The notes under the pieces: model-generated
Databases searched by the model: none
What the model was told of the DNA's origin: nothing
Seen by the model: only the letters and a program-made list of their open reading frames with translations
Position numbers and translations under genes: made by a program
Part shown: positions 1 to 26,557 of the stretch, one piece after another
Numbering within the stretch: position 1 is the stretch's first letter
Layout of the letters: every line of letters starts with the position of its first letter
DNA from: Shinella pollutisoli
GTDB taxonomy: Bacteria > Pseudomonadota > Alphaproteobacteria > Rhizobiales > Rhizobiaceae
Assembly: GCF_024609765.1 (NCBI RefSeq)
Contig: NZ_JANFDG010000002.1
Coordinates: 124,001-188,000, forward strand
DNA length: 64,000 bases
Direction: 5' to 3'

Positions 1-645
1 GCGCGCCACATGGGTGATCTTCATCAGGTGGTCGTCGACGACGTTGGCCATGTGATAGGTCGGCATGCCGTCGGCCTTGATCAGCACCTGCATGTCGACG
101 CTCTCCCACGGGATCGACACGTCGCCGTAGACGCCGTCGTGGAAGTCGCAGGAGCCCTCGACCGGGATCTTCATGCGCACGACGGAGGGCTCGCCGGCGG
201 CGAGCCGGCCCGTCACCTCCTCGGCCGAGAGGTTGAGGCAGTGGCCGTCATAGCCCGGCGGCTTGCCGGCGGCACGCTGCGCCTCGCGCATCGCCTCCAG
301 CCGTTCCGGCGTGCAGAAGCAGCGGAAGGCGTGGCCCTTTTCGAGCAGCTGCTCGGCATAGGGCCAGTACATCGCCTTGCGGTCGGACTGGCGGTAGGGG
401 CCGTAGGGGCCGCCGATATCCGGGCCTTCCGACCATTCGAGCCCGCACCATTTCAGCGCGTCCAGCACCTTCTGCTCGAATTCCGGCGTCGAGCGCGTGG
501 CGTCCGTGTCCTCGATGCGTAGGATGAAGGTGCCGTTGTGCTTCTTCGCGAAGAGATAGTTGAAGAGCGCGATATAGGCGGTGCCGACATGCGGCTCGCC
601 GGTGGGCGAAGGGGCGATGCGTACGCGGACGCCGGAAGTGCTCAT
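1..645 (-). CDS. gltX: Glutamyl-tRNA synthetase, N-terminal part (cut by window edge)
   Basis: Charges tRNA-Glu (in many alphaproteobacteria also tRNA-Gln, later amidated) in the cytosol. The start at 645 gives [20 protein letters not shown], with the class I nucleotide-binding signature [14 protein letters not shown] (HIGH-type motif at residues 19-22) and then LRIEDTD. A CxC...Y...C arrangement in the insert (FCTPERL to GYDGHC) resembles the zinc site of bacterial GluRS. The 215 codons stay open to base 1, so the KMSKS half and the anticodon-binding domain lie outside. Alphaproteobacteria often carry two gltX copies; which one this is cannot be told here. The SLC13 permease lies just upstream on the same strand, 112 bases away. 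Confidence 0.93.
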
Positions 646-757
646 GATGTGGCCCGTCCTGACAGGGTTCAAAGCCTCGCGGCGGCGGAGGCGTCGTTTC
701 AGGGGAAATCGGGCCGGGTGAGACCATATTCAGCCCGGCGCGTCAAGGGAGGAGAAC

Positions 758-2530
758 CTACCGCAACGGCCAGACGTAGAGCAGCGCCGGCACGCTCACC
801 AGCACGATGAGGAGGGACAGCGGCAGGCCGACGCGCGGGTAGTCGGCAAACCTGTAGCCGCCCGGTCCCATCACCAGCGTGTTGCACTGGTGGCCGACGG
901 GCGAGAGGAAGTCGCAGCCCGCGCCGATCGCCACCGCCATCAGGAAGGCCTCCGGCCGGAAGCCGAGCGTGGCGGCGAAGCTCGCGGCGATCGGCGCCAT
1001 GACGAGCACGGTCGCGGCATTGTTGAGGAAGGGCGTCACGGCCATGGCGGTGATGAGGATGAGCGCGAGCGCGCCGAAGGGCGGCAGGTGGATCGCGACG
1101 TCGCCGAGCCAGCCGGCGATGAGCTCGCTCGCCCCCGTCGTGCGCAGGCTGTCGGAGACCGGGATCAGGGCGGCGAGCATGACGAGGATCGGCCCGTCGA
1201 GCGCGCCGTAGACCTCGCGCAGCGGCACGGCGCGGAAGACGACCATGGCGACGGCGGCGGCGAAGAAGCCGGTCGCCACCGGCACGACGCCGAGCGCGGT
1301 CGCGGCCATCGCGGCGATCAGCACGAGGACCGGGATGAAGGCGCGGCGCGGCGCGCCGAGCAGGATCTCGCGCTGGGCGAGCGGCAGCAGGCCGAGCTCC
1401 GGCAGCAGCGTCGGCAGCGTCCGGTTGTTGCCCTGCAGCACGACCATGTCGCCGGGGCGCAGGCGCACCTGCGAGAGCTTTTCGCGCAGCCGCTCGCCCT
1501 GGCGGCTGACGGCGAGCAGGTTGATGCCGTAGGAATGGAAGAGCGCAATCGAGCGCGCGGAGATGTCGATGAGGCGGGAATCGTTGGCGACCACCGCCTC
1601 GATGGCGCTGATCTCGCCCGCCTCGCCGCGCCCGGCGCGGATCGGCTGGCCGGAGAGCGTCAGGCCGGCGGCGGAGACGACCTTGTCGAGCGCGCCCGCC
1701 GTGCCCTCCATCAGGATCGTGTCGCCCGCGGCGAGCCGCACGTCCGGCAGCGGCGCGATGTGGACGTGGCCGCGGATGATGGCGGTGGCGATCACGTCGC
1801 CGTCGCCGTTCTTCAGCACCTCGTTCAGCGACTTGCCGATGGCGGGCGAGTTTTCGCCCACGGTCGCGTCGGAGGAATAGGCGGCGGCCTCCAGCGATTC
1901 CTCGATCGAGGCGCTGCGGTTCGTCCGCTCCGGCACGATGCGGTTGAAGGCGAGCATGAACAGCACGCCGCAGGCCGTCAGCACCGTGCCGACCGGCGTG
2001 AAGTCGAACATGGTGAAGCTCTCGCCGGAAATCTCCTGGCGCAGCCGCGAGACGACGATGTTGGGCGAGGTGCCGATCTGCGTCATCAGCCCGCCGAGGA
2101 GGGCCGCGAACGCCATCGGCATCAGGAATTTCGAGGCCGGCGTGCCGGACTGGCGGGCGAACTGGAAGGCGAGCGGCATCATGATGGCGAGCGCGCCGAT
2201 GTTCTTGATGAAGGCCGACAGCACCGCGACGGAGACGAGCAGCAGCGCGAGCTGCGCGCGCATTCCGGTGAGGTTCGGGAAGAAGCGCTTCACCGCGACG
2301 TTGACGATGCCCGAGCGGGCGACCGCGGCGCTCACCATCAGCGCGCTGCCGACGATGATGACGATGTCGTCGGAAAAGCCGGAGAAGGCCTTGTCGAAGG
2401 GGACGATGCCGAGACAGAGCGCGAGCAGCAGAGAGCAGCAGGCGACGAGGTCGTAGCGGAAACGCCCCCAGATGAACGCGCCCATCATCAGGGCGATCAC
2501 GGCGAAGGCGAAGATCTGTTCCGTGGTCAT
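758..2530 (-). CDS. SLC13-family anion/sodium symporter with two TrkA-C domains
   Basis: Predicted inner-membrane permease of 590 residues. The N-terminal half has several hydrophobic helices with SLC13/ArsB-like stretches (GSALMVSAAVARSG, IGTSPNIVVS). The middle has two TrkA-C (RCK_C) cytoplasmic regulatory domains (around VGENSPAIGKSLNEVL and ISAIEAVVANDSRLID), and a second helix bundle follows with a repeated GCDFLSPVGHQ motif. This architecture is typical of large SLC13 permeases that import sulfate, dicarboxylates or related anions; the substrate cannot be read from sequence. The frame is open to 2605, but ATG 2530 (MTTEQIFAFAVIAL) puts the first membrane helix directly at the N-terminus and is preferred. 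Confidence 0.85.
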   Translation of the reverse strand: MTTEQIFAFAVIALMMGAFIWGRFRYDLVACCSLLLALCLGIVPFDKAFSGFSDDIVIIVGSALMVSAAVARSGIVNVAVKRFFPNLTGMRAQLALLLVSVAVLSAFIKNIGALAIMMPLAFQFARQSGTPASKFLMPMAFAALLGGLMTQIGTSPNIVVSRLRQEISGESFTMFDFTPVGTVLTACGVLFMLAFNRIVPERTNRSASIEESLEAAAYSSDATVGENSPAIGKSLNEVLKNGDGDVIATAIIRGHVHIAPLPDVRLAAGDTILMEGTAGALDKVVSAAGLTLSGQPIRAGRGEAGEISAIEAVVANDSRLIDISARSIALFHSYGINLLAVSRQGERLREKLSQVRLRPGDMVVLQGNNRTLPTLLPELGLLPLAQREILLGAPRRAFIPVLVLIAAMAATALGVVPVATGFFAAAVAMVVFRAVPLREVYGALDGPILVMLAALIPVSDSLRTTGASELIAGWLGDVAIHLPPFGALALILITAMAVTPFLNNAATVLVMAPIAASFAATLGFRPEAFLMAVAIGAGCDFLSPVGHQCNTLVMGPGGYRFADYPRVGLPLSLLIVLVSVPALLYVWPLR

Positions 2531-21321: not shown

Positions 21322-22412
21322 GCCTGCAAGGCCGCGCCGAGCAGCAGGAGACCGAGCAGCATGACAAGCGCTGCCCCGGCGATCTCGATGACCGTGCCGA
21401 CCCGTGCCGCGGCGGCCCCTTCGCCGGCGAAGCGCACGGCCGCGCCCTTCGCGGTGACGGCGAGTGTGGCAAGCACGGAGACGGTGATGGCGGTGCCGAC
21501 CGACATGGCGAGGACGGCGAGCACGCCGCCGAGATAAAGGCCGTTCAGAAGCGCGAAGGACAGCACGATCAGCGCGCCCGAGCAGGGGCGCAGGCCCACC
21601 GCGACGATGGCCGACCAGGCCTCGCCGAGCGAGAAGCGCTTGCCGCGGAGCATCGCCGGATCCGGCGCATGGGCATGGCCGCAGGTGGCGCAGACTTCGC
21701 CCGCCGCGTGGTGATGATGGTGATCGTGACCATGGTCTTCATGCCCGCTTGCCGCCGGCGCGGGGCGGAGCTTGCGGAAGAGCAGCCAGGCGCCGAAGAG
21801 GGCGATCAGGCCGTAGCTCGCAATCTCCAGCGCGCGGGTGGCGTCGGTCATCGAGACGGTGGTGCCGCGCAGGAACAGATAGGCCGCGCCGACGAGCAGG
21901 ATGGCGACGACGCCCTGCAGCAGCGCGGAGAGGAAGGAGAGCGCCACGCCGCGCTTCAGCTCCACCTCGTTCGCCAGCATGTAGGAGGAGATCACCGCCT
22001 TGCCGTGGCCGGGGCCGGCGGCGTGGAAGACGCCGTAGGCGAAGGCGAGCGCCACGAGCGTCGAGGCGGCGGCGGGGCTTTCGCGCATCTCCTTCAGCGC
22101 GCCGGTCATCAGCCGGTAGAAGCCCTGCTGCTGCGCGTTGATCCAGGAGAAGAGGCCGCCGAACACGCCGGTCGTGCTGAAGCCCGGCTCAGCAGTGCCG
22201 ATGCCGAGTGGCGACTGCGCATGGGCGACGGTCGCGGCGAGGGTGAGGGCGAGCGCGATGAGGAGGATGGGGGACGCCCCCCTCATCCGGCCCTTCGGGC
22301 CACCTTCTCCCCGAGGGGAGAAGGGGAATGCCGTCAGCGCCGCATATCCCTTCTCCCCTCGGGGAGAAGGTGCCGGCAGGCGGATGAGGGGAATTGCCTT
22401 GAACCCATTCAT
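21318..22412 (-). CDS. NicO-family nickel/cobalt exporter with a repeat in its 5' end
   Basis: 364-residue membrane protein of the NicO/RcnA group, exporting Ni/Co. Six or more helices flank a His-rich cytosolic loop (SGHEDHGHDHHHHHAAGEVC, CGHAHA) and the family motif GPGHGKAVISSYMLAN. It is coupled to the upstream DUF1007 gene by TGATG at 22412. Unusually, the first 40-odd codons (NGFKAIPLIRLPAPSPRGEKG ...) are translated from two dispersed repeats; the natural signal-like segment (SPILLIALALTLAATVAHAQ) begins only after them. An ATG at 22286 inside the repeat, after GAAGGTGG, could be the working start. Confidence 0.85.
   Translation of the reverse strand: MNGFKAIPLIRLPAPSPRGEKGYAALTAFPFSPRGEGGPKGRMRGASPILLIALALTLAATVAHAQSPLGIGTAEPGFSTTGVFGGLFSWINAQQQGFYRLMTGALKEMRESPAAASTLVALAFAYGVFHAAGPGHGKAVISSYMLANEVELKRGVALSFLSALLQGVVAILLVGAAYLFLRGTTVSMTDATRALEIASYGLIALFGAWLLFRKLRPAPAASGHEDHGHDHHHHHAAGEVCATCGHAHAPDPAMLRGKRFSLGEAWSAIVAVGLRPCSGALIVLSFALLNGLYLGGVLAVLAMSVGTAITVSVLATLAVTAKGAAVRFAGEGAAAARVGTVIEIAGAALVMLLGLLLLGAALQA
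22277..22326 (+). repeat. Dispersed palindromic repeat, copy B1, inside the NicO frame
   Basis: Reads CCCCCTCATCC, GGCCCTTCGGGCC, then the hairpin CTTCTCCCC / GGGGAGAAG. On the minus strand its ATGAGGGG supplies the in-frame ATG at 22286. Confidence 0.7.
22348..22391 (-). repeat. Dispersed palindromic repeat, copy B2, inside the NicO frame
   Basis: The hairpin CTTCTCCCC / GGGGAGAAG followed by TGCCGGCAGGCGGATGAGGGG, in inverse orientation to B1. Both copies keep the NicO frame open. Confidence 0.7.
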
Positions 22413-23127: not shown

Positions 23128-24033
23128 TCACCCCTCGACGCCGGCATTGCGGCGGAACCAGGCCGAGAGGAAATCGACGAAGGTGCGCACCTTCGCCGGC
23201 AGGTAGCGCCGGTGCGGATAGATCGCGTAGATGCCGCGGTCGGACGGCAGGAAATCCTCCAGCACCGAGACGAGCGCGCCCGATTCGAGATGGGTACGGG
23301 CGATGAAGGCCGGCACCTGGGCGATGCCGAGTCCGCTTGCGGCCGCCCGCAGCGAGGCCATCGGGCTGTTGACCTCGATATGGCCGCTGACCGGCACGCT
23401 GAACCCCGCGCCCTTGCCGTCGACGAAGCGCCAGTTGTTGTAGGACTTGCCGTTGGTGTCGATGATGCAGGGCAGGCGCGAGAGGTCGCCCGGATGCGTG
23501 ACCGGCCCGGCGCGTTCGAGGAAGGCGGGGGCGGCGCAGATCTTCAGGTGGAAGTCGCAGAGCTTTCGCGCGATGAGGGCGGAATCCTCAAGCCGGGTGA
23601 TGCGGATCGCCACGTCGAAACCCTCCTCGACCAGGTCGACGAAGCGGTCCTCCGCGACGATCTCCAGCGACAGCTCCGGATGCTCCTTGCCGAAATCGAT
23701 CAGCGACTGGCCGATGTCGGCATCGACGAAGGTGCGCGGCGCGGAGATCTTCAGCTTGCCGCGGAGATCGGCATTGTTCTCGCGCACGAGGTCGGCGAGG
23801 TTATCGATCTCCTTGAGGATGTCGGCGGCGGTGCGGTAGTAGGTGTGGCCGGCCTCGGTCATGGAGAACTGGCGGGTGGTGCGGTTGAGCAGCAGCGTGC
23901 CGAGCTCGTCCTCCAGTTCGCGCACGTATTTGGACAGCAGCGCCTTCGACCGGCCGGTCTTGCGCGAGGCGGCCGAAAATCCCTCGGCATCGACCACGTC
24001 GATGAAGGCGCGGATGCGGGTCAGCGTGTCCAT
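23128..24033 (-). CDS. LysR-family transcriptional regulator
   Basis: 301-residue regulator with an N-terminal winged helix-turn-helix (MDTLTRIRAFIDVVDAEGFSAASRKTGRSKALLSKYVRELEDELG) and a periplasmic-binding-like effector domain (KLKISAPRTFVDADIGQSLIDF; LPSDRGIYAIYPHRRYLPAKVRTFVDFL) of the CrgA/DntR-like subgroup that often regulates neighbouring oxidoreductases. No obvious divergent target: the ornithine decarboxylase lies 530 bases away behind its own long leader. ATG 24033 is the family-consistent start; the frame runs further upstream. Confidence 0.88.
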   Translation of the reverse strand: MDTLTRIRAFIDVVDAEGFSAASRKTGRSKALLSKYVRELEDELGTLLLNRTTRQFSMTEAGHTYYRTAADILKEIDNLADLVRENNADLRGKLKISAPRTFVDADIGQSLIDFGKEHPELSLEIVAEDRFVDLVEEGFDVAIRITRLEDSALIARKLCDFHLKICAAPAFLERAGPVTHPGDLSRLPCIIDTNGKSYNNWRFVDGKGAGFSVPVSGHIEVNSPMASLRAAASGLGIAQVPAFIARTHLESGALVSVLEDFLPSDRGIYAIYPHRRYLPAKVRTFVDFLSAWFRRNAGVEG

Positions 24034-24129
24034 ATGTCCCCACTCGTCTTGCAGTGCCGGCTCTGCGGCCGCGTTTTGCGAATGTCGTGGCCGGGGCATA
24101 ATTTTCAAGGGCGGCGGGCAAAAAACCTC

Positions 24130-24157
24130 TTGATTGCGACAGGGAATCTCCCTATCT
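24130..24157 (+). promoter_or_regulatory. Promoter of the ornithine decarboxylase leader
   Basis: TTGATT (24130-24135), 16 bases, CTATCT (24152-24157) fits the alphaproteobacterial housekeeping promoter (TTGAC, about 17, CTATAT). Transcription would begin near 24164, giving a leader of about 400 bases. The stretch 24034-24129 before it shows no gene. Confidence 0.5.
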
Positions 24158-24163
24158 CACCCC

Positions 24164-24567
24164 TGCCCAAAGTCGCACGTGCCTGTGGGTGTCCGCCGAC
24201 CCTCGATTTGGTGAGGATCATCGGTAAGGTACCTGGACCTAACCGCTCCAGTCGCTATCCCGGCCAACCGGGAAATGCGAGGACACCTTGAAGCAACGAC
24301 GGTGCGGGCCTTTCTGGTCTCTGCCGGCTTTCCATCAGCCGGGGTTACTGAAGAGGCACACCTTCATTGCCGGACGTGCGGTCGGGTCTTCCCAACCAAT
24401 CCATGGCAGACAAAGCCGGATCGAAGCCCTGGCAGGCGTCGTTCCATCGTTCGCGCATCATGCGCATGCCCGGTTCCGGTGTCTCCACCGGCTGGTTCCG
24501 GCGCGTGTCCGCATATGCCCTTTGTCCTCCGGGTTTCCGGAGCAACCTGGATATGGGGAATATTGGG
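24164..24567 (+). promoter_or_regulatory. speF-type structured leader RNA of ornithine decarboxylase
   Basis: A 400-base leader with multi-branched folding visible by eye. GGTGTCC (24188-24194) pairs with GGACACC (24281-24287), closing a junction that holds hairpin GGTAAGGT/ACCTAACC (24223-24244) and hairpin 24252-24280 (TCGC, then TCCCGG-CCAA-CCGGGA, then GCGA). Further hairpins are CCGGCT/AGCCGG at 24324-24342 and CTCCGG/CCGGAG at 24527-24542, just before the ribosome-binding site. In alphaproteobacteria the speF RNA motif precedes exactly this gene; its identity here rests on position and architecture, since no covariance search was run. Confidence 0.7.
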
Positions 24568-25701
24568 ATGACCACCGCTCGCATCATCGACTTTCTCGCC
24601 ACCCGACGTCCCGACGGCCCGTGCCTCGTGGTCGACCTCGATGTCGTGCGCGACAATTTCAAGGCCTTCCGCCACGCGCTGCCCGACAGCGCCATCTACT
24701 ATGCCGTCAAGGCCAACCCGGCGCCGGAGATCCTGCGGCTCCTCGCGAGCCTCGGCTCCAGCTTCGATTGCGCCTCCGTCGCGGAAATCGAGATGGCGCT
24801 CGACGCCGGTGCGACGCCCGCCCGCATCTCCTTCGGCAATACGATCAAGAAGGAGCGCGACATTGCGCGTGCGCATGCGCTCGGCGTGACACTCTTCGCC
24901 GTCGACAGTCACGAGGAAGTCGAGAAGATCGCCCGTGCCGCCCCCGGCGCCCGCGTCTTCTGCCGCGTGCTGACGGACGGCGAGGGGGCGGAATGGCCAC
25001 TGTCGCGCAAGTTCGGCTGCGTGCCGCAGATGGCCGTCGACGTGCTCGTCTACGCCCACCAGCTCGGTCTTGCCTCCCACGGCGTCTCGTTCCATGTCGG
25101 CTCGCAGATGACGAAGGTCGATGCCTGGGATTCGGCGCTCGCCGACGCCAAGCGCGTCTTCGTGTCGCTTGCCAAGCAGGGCATCACGCTGAAGATGGTC
25201 AACATGGGCGGCGGCTTCCCGGCGAAGTACCTGAAGGACGTGCCGACGGCGGAAGCCTACGGCCAGGCGATCTTCGGCGCGCTGAAGAAGCACTTCGGCA
25301 ACCAGATCCCGGAGACGATCATCGAGCCGGGCCGCGGCATGGTCGGCAATGCCGGCGTGATCAAGGCGGAGGTCGTCCTCGTCTCGAAGAAGTCGGACAA
25401 CGATGCGCATCGCTGGGTCTTCCTCGACATCGGCAAGTTCGGCGGTCTGGCCGAGACGATGGACGAGGCGATCCGCTACCCGATCCGCACGGCGCGCGAC
25501 GACGACGCGATGGAGCCCTGCGTGCTCGCGGGTCCCACCTGCGATTCGGCCGACGTGCTCTACGAGAAGAACATGTACCCGCTGCCGATCACCCTTTCGA
25601 TCGGCGACGAGGTGCTGATCGAGGGCACCGGCGCCTATACGACGACCTACTCGGCCGTCGCTTTCAACGGCTTCGAGCCGCTGAAGGCCTACGTCATCTG
25701 A
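24568..25701 (+). CDS. Ornithine/lysine decarboxylase, alanine-racemase fold
   Basis: 377-residue PLP enzyme of the eukaryotic-like (fold III) ODC family, making putrescine from ornithine and possibly cadaverine from lysine. The PLP lysine is K48 in YYAVKANPAPEIL; other motifs are FDCASVAEIEMAL, FHVGSQ, VNMGGGFPAKY, EPGRGMVGNAG and CDSADVLYEKNMYPLP with Cys325. Homologues in alphaproteobacteria lie behind the speF leader motif. ATG 24568 follows GGGGAATATT and gives the family's N-terminus; the upstream open frame to 24367 runs through leader RNA. Confidence 0.93.
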   Translation: MTTARIIDFLATRRPDGPCLVVDLDVVRDNFKAFRHALPDSAIYYAVKANPAPEILRLLASLGSSFDCASVAEIEMALDAGATPARISFGNTIKKERDIARAHALGVTLFAVDSHEEVEKIARAAPGARVFCRVLTDGEGAEWPLSRKFGCVPQMAVDVLVYAHQLGLASHGVSFHVGSQMTKVDAWDSALADAKRVFVSLAKQGITLKMVNMGGGFPAKYLKDVPTAEAYGQAIFGALKKHFGNQIPETIIEPGRGMVGNAGVIKAEVVLVSKKSDNDAHRWVFLDIGKFGGLAETMDEAIRYPIRTARDDDAMEPCVLAGPTCDSADVLYEKNMYPLPITLSIGDEVLIEGTGAYTTTYSAVAFNGFEPLKAYVI

Positions 25702-25748: not shown

Positions 25749-25788
25749 CCCCTCACCCTAACCCTCTCCCCGCAAGCGGGGAGAGGGG
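25749..25788 (+). repeat. Dispersed palindromic repeat, copy C1
   Basis: CCCCTCACCCTAACC then the hairpin CCTCTCCCCG / CGGGGAGAGG around CAAG. It lies 47 bases after the decarboxylase stop and may act as its terminator. Confidence 0.7.
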
Positions 25789-25838
25789 ACCTGCCCGACG
25801 AAATGGAACCGCTTCGGGAAAAGCGGTGCGGCGCATTT

Positions 25839-25887
25839 CCTTCTCCCCGCTTGCGGGGAGACGGTGGCCGGCAGGCCGGATGAGGGG
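25839..25887 (-). repeat. Dispersed palindromic repeat, copy C2
   Basis: Hairpin CTTCTCCCCG / CGGGGAGACG followed by GCCGGCAGGCCGGATGAGGGG; inverse of C1. A preceding module (GGGAAAAGCGGTGCGGC) recurs before copy D, showing the mosaic build of these elements. Confidence 0.7.
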
Positions 25888-25984
25888 CCATATCCACACG
25901 CAATAACCCTGCATCTCGGCGGGAGCGCACATCCACCGATCCTTTCCGTACCGTCTGAAACGGTTTTGAGCATGGGAGGCCGTG

Positions 25985-26557
25985 ATGGCCGCTGTCCTCG
26001 ATCCTGTCCGCTCCTTCCTCGTCGACCGGGAGAACGCCGGTGACGTGCTCGCCCGCGAGCGCCTGCTCGACCGCGCCATGGGCGAGGGGCGTTTCAAGAA
26101 ATCCTCGGAGAAGCTGCGCCGCGGCCGCATGCCGGCCGAAGGGCTGGCGCTCGTCGCGCGCGATGCGGCCGGCCACGTCATCGGCACGGTGCGGCTCTGG
26201 GACGTCGAGGCCGGCGTCGACGGTGACGGCGAGGGCGCGCCGGCGCTGCTGCTCGGCCCGCTCGCGGTCGCTCCGGAGCATGAGGGCCTAGGCATCGGCG
26301 GCGCGCTGATGCGCGCAGCACTCGCCGAGGCGCGCGACCGCGGCCATGGCGCGGTCCTTCTCGTCGGCGATCCGGAATATTACGAGCGCTTCGGCTTCTT
26401 CGCCGAGAAGGCGCGGCATCTCGTCATGCCCGGTCCCTTCGAGCGTCGCCGCTTCCTCGCGCTGGAGCTGAAGGAGGGCTGGCTTGCCGATGCCGCCGGC
26501 GTGCTGGTGCCGAGCGGCCGCCGGCGGATCGCGGCCGGCCCGCGCAAGGCGGCCTGA
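25985..26557 (+). CDS. GNAT N-acetyltransferase
   Basis: 190-residue single-domain acetyltransferase of the group with C-terminal extension often annotated as predicted N-acetyltransferase YhbS. The core acetyl-CoA binding region is LLLGPLAVAPEHEGLGIGGALMRAALAEARDRGHGAVLLVGDPEYYERFGF. N-terminal residues before 45 are extended (VRSFLVDRENAGDVLARERLLDRAMGE), as in that group. The substrate is unknown. GTG at 25982 is an alternative start three bases earlier. Confidence 0.87.
   Translation: MAAVLDPVRSFLVDRENAGDVLARERLLDRAMGEGRFKKSSEKLRRGRMPAEGLALVARDAAGHVIGTVRLWDVEAGVDGDGEGAPALLLGPLAVAPEHEGLGIGGALMRAALAEARDRGHGAVLLVGDPEYYERFGFFAEKARHLVMPGPFERRRFLALELKEGWLADAAGVLVPSGRRRIAAGPRKAA

Follow-up and report, generated by a model that had tools for sequence, protein, structure and literature searches.

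Does the long leader in front of a decarboxylase gene of Shinella pollutisoli carry an RNA switch and, if so, which of its strands compete? The leader lies in a stretch of 64,000 nucleotides (the window, whose numbering is used throughout), occupies positions 24165-24567, about 400 bases, and is followed by an ATG at 24568 that was placed by homologues. The original prediction described an untranslated leader of this length before ornithine decarboxylase and assigned it to the speF RNA; both statements proved correct, the second through an end-to-end match of the Rfam speF covariance model directly 5' of a COG0019-type decarboxylase, whose ATG lies 91 bases behind the match (Table 1). The ar45 family went unnamed there: the first 149 bases of the leader belong to this separate Rfam family, which has a single match in the S. 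pollutisoli genome. That the leader consists of ar45 followed by speF is practically certain; the element is already known, and the copy here is an ordinary member. In NCBIfam, the 377-aa decarboxylase had only sub-threshold matches (e.g., to lysA), and it is taken as an ornithine decarboxylase, with the substrate coming from the literature on the speF leader. Rfam matches to miRNA, snoRNA, and IRES families between 20000 and 30000 were below their gathering scores and were ignored; a palindrome at 22300-22373 draws weak miRNA matches of this kind, and further G+C-rich palindromes lie behind the decarboxylase gene (25753-25900).

A promoter-like pair of hexamers precedes the first ar45 base in the window. 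Among 127 leaders, 73 have a strict -35/-10 pattern whose end lies 7 or 8 nt from GCCC, and 103 have a looser one; a generic E. coli-type scan found no promoter. Given this spacing in the 73 leaders, the transcript probably begins near G24165. On the minus strand of the window, a gene for a LysR-type regulator (23128-24108) points away from the leader, and in locus L057 another LysR-type regulator gene occupies the same place (300-1292, minus strand).

Table 1. Features of the leader and the adjoining gene, in window coordinates.
Feature	Positions	Strand	Basis
Promoter-like pair CTTGAT (24129-24134), 17 nt, CTATCT (24152-24157), 7 nt before G24165	24129-24157	+	Sequence
Rfam ar45 (RF02347) match, folded as fold T, ends at U-run	24165-24313	+	171.8 bits vs gathering score 40; full model, positions 1-148
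Fold T closing stem: GCCC 24165-24168:GGGC 24306-24309; GUCG 24172-24175:CGAC 24297-24300; UGC 24180-24182:GCA 24293-24295	24165-24309	+	Rfam ar45 structure
Long-range stem 24187-24194:24281-24288 and enclosed hairpins	24187-24288	+	First in helix scan
U-run behind fold T, UUU only	24311-24313	+	Sequence
Rfam speF (RF00518) match	24322-24476	+	106 bits vs gathering score 37; full length of model, positions 1-153
Fold R long hairpin	24293-24370	+	Pair counts, RNAalifold, MI scan, 249 loci
Fold R outer pairs: GCAA 24293-24296:UUGC 24367-24370; GA 24298-24299:UC 24364-24365			
Fold R core: GGUG 24301-24304:CACC 24359-24362			
Fold R further pairs: GCCUUU 24308-24313:AGAGGC 24352-24357; UGGU 24315-24318:ACUG 24347-24350			
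Fold R top hairpin: CCGGCU 24324-24329:AGCCGG 24337-24342			
Fold R closing pairs: GCAC 24175-24178:GUGC 24376-24379	24175-24379	+	117/123 leaders, nearly invariant; predicted in window
Long-range helix GACAAAG 24409-24415:CUUUGUC 24520-24526	24409-24526	+	Tenth in helix scan; outside Rfam model
Hairpin CCGGU-GUCUCCACCG-GCUGG, loop CUCCA 24483-24487, anti-Shine-Dalgarno-like	24476-24495	+	Outside Rfam model
Hairpin CTCCGG-GTTT-CCGGAG before ribosome-binding site	24527-24542	+	Minimum-energy fold
Ribosome-binding site GGGGA	24555-24559	+	Sequence; homologues G-rich at same place
Pyridoxal-dependent decarboxylase gene, 377 aa	24568-25701	+	Orn_Arg_deC_N 197.1 bits

The original prediction rested on three words, GGTGTCC (24188-24194), GGACACC (24281-24287), and GCACACC (24356-24362), all of which lie at these positions. 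The long-range stem formed by the first two obtained the top score among the helices found in a scan of 123 non-redundant leaders (0.63, vs 0.62 for the next); all seven pairs are present in 107 of the 116 leaders having letters at every position, and TA/CG exchanges occur at 24190:24285 and 24192:24283. The lack of covariation across relatives that would have spoken against the original prediction was not observed. Fold energy alone is a weak argument for structure here (z = -1.69 for 24165-24320 and -2.14 for 24165-24600). It had also been suggested that GCACACC competes for GGTGT 24188-24192 and that the leader is therefore a switch. The general idea survives, in that two exclusive folds are likely; the partner strand was wrong. 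The five pairs with 24188-24192 are all formed in only 77 of 122 leaders, and position 24190 is a C in 36 of 123, so this competitor was rejected. GCACACC does pair with a GGTG, and the supported partner is the one at 24301-24304, in the 3' strand of the ar45 terminator stem, and not the one within 24188-24194.

This pairing is the core of a long hairpin that we call fold R. In an alignment of 102 sequences, the core pairs 24301-24303:24360-24362 were formed in 97.0% of the cells, as compared to 73.7% after shuffling; the covariation was 0.511 vs 0.185, none of 500 shuffles reached as high a value, and versions slid along the alignment did not exceed 0.077. Two of the five measures are no higher than in the shuffles, namely how many pairs show double changes and how many pair types occur. 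For the whole of fold R, 97.0% of the cells were paired vs 90.3% in the shuffles, with a covariation of 0.270 vs 0.154 (slid versions at most 0.087). The 102 rows were cut out by patterns that fix most of AAGCAACGA, a GAGGC-like word, and TTGCC; the invariance of GCAA:UUGC and of the AGGC strand in these rows is therefore partly by construction, while the covarying core was left free. A mutual information scan naming no structure placed two of the core pairs first and third among 6,903 column pairs, and RNAalifold yielded the whole R helix unprompted, as did the minimum-energy fold of the window. GCCUUU:AGAGGC forms in 120 of the 123 leaders found via Rfam speF alone.

Because MAFFT misplaces a few rows in this region, the R register was also read directly from the loci. 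It could be parsed in 249 of 253; three loci (L146, L148, and L186) end too soon, and the spacing in L241 is different. Standard pairs occupy all three inner positions in 244 of the 249, and the fourth position as well in 202. Two of the five failures are true mismatches (L163 and L218), and in the other three (L016, L020, and L050) the pattern split the loop wrongly. Between groups the core changes type, from GGU:ACC to GGA:UCC, GUA:UAC, GGA:UCU, and GAA:UUU. Mapped on a tree of 97 decarboxylase rows, the core needs 10 changes on its 5' side and 12 on its 3' side. Where branches are well supported, the second core pair gave four independent contrasts that all agree in direction, and the third gave two, of which one agrees and one shows no change; these contrasts are too few for a test. 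A distant locus (L294), which is matched by our own model and not by that of Rfam, has by eye a T stem rebuilt as CCGUC:GACGG and an R core of six pairs, GUAAGA:UCUUAC. We are highly confident that fold R exists.

Three other pairings of this region were considered and set aside. The hairpin GGCA:UGCC of the Rfam model (24355-24358:24368-24371) is weaker than fold R, and its A-U pair fails in 32 of 101 rows. A pseudoknot, in which the ar45 internal loop would kiss the speF hairpin loop through GGTG:CACC, was rejected in favor of one helix, since the neighboring pairs GCAA:UUGC, GA:UC, and GCCUUU:AGAGGC make GGTG:CACC a part of it. Pairing of GUCUGCC, at the base of the 24324 hairpin, with GGCAGAC (24406-24412) looked good by eye in some Rhizobiaceae and not in others. 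The extended speF element of Corbino 2005 (PMC1273637) begins, as described there, close to where transcription starts; it has a stem that carries a variable insertion at its top, followed by about 80 conserved bases forming a "long bulged stem-loop"; going by this description, the latter may be fold R, in whole or in part.

Fold T, the ar45 structure, is supported differently. Among 123 leaders, its GCCC:GGGC pairs form in 120, UCG:CGA in 123, and UGC:GCA in 120, and because these pairs are nearly invariant, they carry little covariation. The basal pair 24165:24309 is A-U instead of G-C in five loci; nine loci with A at 24165 and C at 24309 (A.C) speak against fold T. The 5' strand of T was read one base out of step in 11 loci and was not found in eight. 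Behind the stem, the window has GGGC followed by CUUUC, and many relatives have GGGC-UUUUUU; in the relatives that came from the scan with the ar45 end plus six T, the six T are there by construction of the search. A terminator scan of the window found nothing at the UUU run. In many relatives outside the family (L126-L255, upstream of AAGCAACGACG), other structures, often larger ones, stand in place of the ar45 middle; the GGACAAGAGGCCGG and CCGGCAGCCGGAGGCGAAACCGGCG motifs, found by eye, are examples.

Since both folds use 24293-24296 and 24306-24309, T and R exclude each other. The R partner could be read in 263 loci. Of these, 257 have C at 24309, always with G at 24356, and the other six have U there, always with A at 24356; in these six the T partner, 24165, is A in five and G in one. 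The pattern by which 24356 was read allowed only G or A, three further loci were unreadable, and the change of base at 24309 is one event on the tree. That this base fits into both folds suggests that both have been kept by evolution. The leader thus has two conserved, mutually exclusive folds before a metabolic gene, R by covariation and T mainly by invariance.

The order in which the folds would form was predicted by folding chains of increasing length. In the window, the basal T pair has P = 0.97 at chain end 24314, at which the GUCG:CGAC part reaches only 0.34. From 24322 to 24346, before the R strand exists, the basal pair is at or below 0.05; it returns to 0.91 at 24354 and is at 0 from 24362 on. 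Fold R has P = 1.00 from chain end 24386, with the freed GCAC 24175-24178 paired to GUGC 24376-24379. The predicted energies are -88.0 kcal/mol for T vs -97.0 kcal/mol for R. The same calculation was made for 104 loci, with six more skipped because the motif was not found. The basal T pair exceeded 0.5 at the U-run in 102 of them (L071 is without T, and L276 without either fold), and was present in none of the longer chains that contain the speF strand; the R outer pair formed in the longer chain in 101, the exceptions being L276 and the borderline loci L139 and L179. Mixing arms between loci of different core type lowered the stability by 4.4 kcal/mol on average (same type, 0.56), and 80% of the draws were worse. 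Judging from the chain-length predictions and the cost of mixed arms, the sequence seems built for T first and R second, and we consider it probable, on this modeling, that T and R alternate as folds in the cell. The R partner strand lies 3' of the U-run, so fold R cannot prevent termination there and would act on transcripts that have escaped it.

Within the family, 254 of 297 genomes have a speF match, which is over the cut-off in 249; within the class, 15 of 385 genomes have one, and the S. pollutisoli genome is in both samples. When public genomes were scanned for the ar45 end plus six T, at least 119 stretches were obtained; among the matches listed, 106 are from Hyphomicrobiales, two from Rhodospirillales, one from Rhodobacterales, and three from other alphaproteobacteria, and seven have titles without a class. 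The decarboxylase is present in 134 of the 135 sequences of the first set, window included. Among the 119 matches listed, it lies 100-650 bases behind the element in 109; nine others have 277 bases or fewer behind it. The one true exception is L057, which has a complete ar45-speF leader (1347-1745), from which the decarboxylase gene is gone, and in which the leader runs into a GNAT acetyltransferase gene. The gene behind the element is nearly always the decarboxylase. A GNAT gene is also found behind the decarboxylase in the window (25982-26557). Locus L247, the remaining one of the 119, contains two decarboxylase genes on one 8-kb stretch, one with the element before it, and more than one leader-like element. 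Second, weak speF matches in genomes G079 and G088 (L277 and L278) lack the AAGCAACGA strand and the decarboxylase, and were put down to chance.

Further hairpins lie between the speF core and the gene. The word CTCCA, which stands in the loop of the first of these, occurs in 140 of 186 non-redundant downstream leaders, as compared to 26.2 expected from mononucleotide shuffles; another conserved CCCTCCAATCC inflates the tally if it is counted in. Among four other five-base words, GTCCA was also raised (53 vs 23.4), and the rest were at 24 or fewer. In 138 of the 140, CTCCA is carried by a stem of at least four pairs (33% for random sites), and 38 different stems are used. Ribosome-binding sites of the form GGAG, GGGG, or GGGA, with which CUCCA is able to pair, are present in 167 of the 186 leaders; any anti-Shine-Dalgarno word would pair likewise, so sequestration of the ribosome-binding site by CUCCA is a suggestion only. 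Of 107 leaders of the first set, 83 form the long-range helix GACAAAG:CUUUGUC with its seven pairs complete; inspection of a further group of loci by eye did not show it. The original prediction had placed a last hairpin just before the ribosome-binding site; the minimum-energy fold has one there, and by eye several relatives have hairpins with other stems at its position.

From these results we put forward the following model. Transcription would start near G24165, and fold T (ar45) would form first, its stem closing directly before the U-run. A share of the transcripts would end at the U-run and be released as the ar45 sRNA, as is reported in other species. Once the polymerase has passed the U-run, the speF strand 24347-24370 would pair with the 3' strand of the terminator stem and open it, which gives fold R; the freed GCAC would pair with GUGC 24376-24379, and R would be the fold of the full-length leader. 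Further 3', the loop of the CUCCA hairpin could cover the ribosome-binding site and would probably set translation. The two folds, their mutual exclusion and conservation, the close link with the decarboxylase, and the CUCCA hairpin are supported by computation. We infer that a signal would shift T vs R or the dwell time at the U-run, and that this signal would be an end product of the pathway. A single bistable RNA is a likelier description of the leader than an sRNA gene with a separate leader behind it, and we lean, somewhat less firmly, towards regulated switching; against the switch model, no regulator of T was found in this analysis.

The strongest competing explanation is that there is no regulated switch, that termination is partial and constitutive, and that R is a stable mRNA fold protecting or spacing the leader. 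In line with this explanation, R is predicted to be the more stable of the two folds and to arise only once the U-run lies behind the polymerase. The explanation would also account for the in-line probing of the Agrobacterium tumefaciens RNA, in which ornithine, lysine, diaminopimelate, putrescine, cadaverine, and spermidine had no measurable binding (PMC1273637); the ligand is unsettled, as the original prediction had stated. It does less well with two strands that are near-invariant over many families, beyond the needs of pairing, and with the close association with one metabolic gene, and on balance we regard it as unlikely, though a serious competitor. Slightly less probable still is that the RNA binds no metabolite and that the conserved internal loop in the T stem is recognized by a protein, such as Rho, NusA, or an RNA-binding protein that responds to polyamines. 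The same negative probing of six metabolites (PMC1273637) and the long conserved strands of the internal loop agree with this; no candidate protein was identified.

We consider improbable the view of ar45 as an ordinary Hfq-bound sRNA that acts in trans and has a promoter and terminator to itself, with speF as an independent cis leader that happens to lie behind it. The published record on ar45 reads this way: it is reported as its own transcript in Sinorhizobium meliloti (SmrC45) and in Bartonella bacilliformis (Bbar45), in the latter separate from a longer speF transcript (PMC2780559, PMC7717549). SmrC45 was given as 181 nt and assigned to a U-run terminator (PMC2780559), was sequenced as 148 nt (PMC2873474), and is reported to co-precipitate with Hfq (PMC2848018). 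What argues against independence is that the 3' strand of ar45 covaries with the speF strand, and that, among the 119 matches listed, which were found by the ar45 end alone, 116 have a speF strand behind it, and three (L146, L148, and L186) end too soon to show one. A released ar45 could act in trans too.

In enterobacteria, the speF leader controls the inducible ornithine decarboxylase from a long leader by way of the SpeFL leader peptide. A peptide sensing ornithine or a polyamine in this manner, which the shared gene function and an ORF of the window overlapping the start codon (24275-24571) would suit, is very improbable here and was rejected, since no reading frame is conserved behind the core: in the 123 of 134 leaders with a placed start codon in which the anchor motif was found, the three frames shift and stop at different places (frames within ar45 were inspected by eye only). 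The main text of a ribosome-profiling paper on S. meliloti contains none of the words for this gene that were looked for (PMC10117765).

If the leader is a regulated bistable RNA, homospermidine is the leading candidate for its signal. Most rhizobia are said to make putrescine and homospermidine (PMC13293326), and homospermidine was not among the six compounds listed in the 2005 report (PMC1273637). The S. pollutisoli genome encodes a homospermidine synthase (a 483-aa protein with 792.6 bits to PDB 4plp), about 86 kb from the leader (G000:C12:148291-148412) on the same contig and on the other strand (G000:C12:234211-235659). In the class sample, whose genomes are not independent of each other, the synthase is present in 14 of 16 genomes with the element vs 65 of 369 without, and in 12 of these 14, by coordinates, it follows the element on the same strand at a distance of less than 3 kb; these 12 are among the 15 carriers sampled outside the family. 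At E 1e-40, the synthase was absent from 10 of 14 element-bearing genomes of the family that had been picked for small size or divergence. Its presence is therefore an ambiguous test of the ligand: the operon context speaks for homospermidine and the carriers without synthase against it, so we draw no conclusion, and a homospermidine-type ligand is doubtful for now. The S. pollutisoli genome also encodes a protein like carboxynorspermidine synthase (L257:352-2730; 452 bits vs a curated cut-off of 800), adjoining a decarboxylase-like ORF (Orn_DAP_Arg_deC, 28.2 bits), perhaps a second polyamine route.

The leader resembles RF00518 (speF, PMC1273637) in the end-to-end match and in the kind of gene behind it, and the extended element of that paper, as we read it, also covers the ar45 part. 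The Rfam model differs in that its match starts at 24322 and omits the strand pairing with its own loop, the CUCCA hairpin, and most of the GACAAAG:CUUUGUC helix. RF02347 (ar45, i.e., the sRNA SmrC45, SmelC706, or Bbar45) likewise matches end to end, closing stem and U-run included; it is filed as a stand-alone sRNA, whereas in the window its 3' strand is common to the speF fold, and many relatives outside the family have another middle and a U6 tail. The leader can also be likened to the SAM-II leader of metZ in S. meliloti, another metabolic leader in which premature termination is thought to yield an sRNA, and whose ligand, by contrast, is known (PMC9373788). From Clostridioides difficile, a "speF motif" with premature termination before a methyltransferase gene is reported (PMC11477304). 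In a literature search of titles and the openings of abstracts, we found no paper joining ar45 and speF in one switch; the 2005 supplement may draw part of R. What appears to be new is the union of the two catalogued halves in a single bistable RNA, for which an order of folding is predicted. Tentatively, and going well beyond this, ar45 and speF might be the halves of one undescribed class of switch, in which a terminator stem forms first and is then invaded by later RNA; a three-helix junction in the full-length leader would be the sensor, homospermidine or a pathway neighbor would be sensed, early termination and ribosome access would both be set, and the released ar45 might in turn act in trans on the same strand as feedback.

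No signal has been known for the speF element since its description in 2005, and the literature has handled ar45 as an sRNA whose target is not known. Should both belong to one switch, a construct beginning where the Rfam speF match begins would contain only half of the fold, ar45 would primarily be a by-product of how its own gene is controlled, and the mutations that would separate T and R could be named to the base. The operon context, with homospermidine synthase near the element, points to a ligand outside the 2005 list and makes an old question testable. Strand invasion from behind a terminator would be an unusual logic, and a leader that refolds from a transcription-stop shape to a second shape would make the signal easier to look for.
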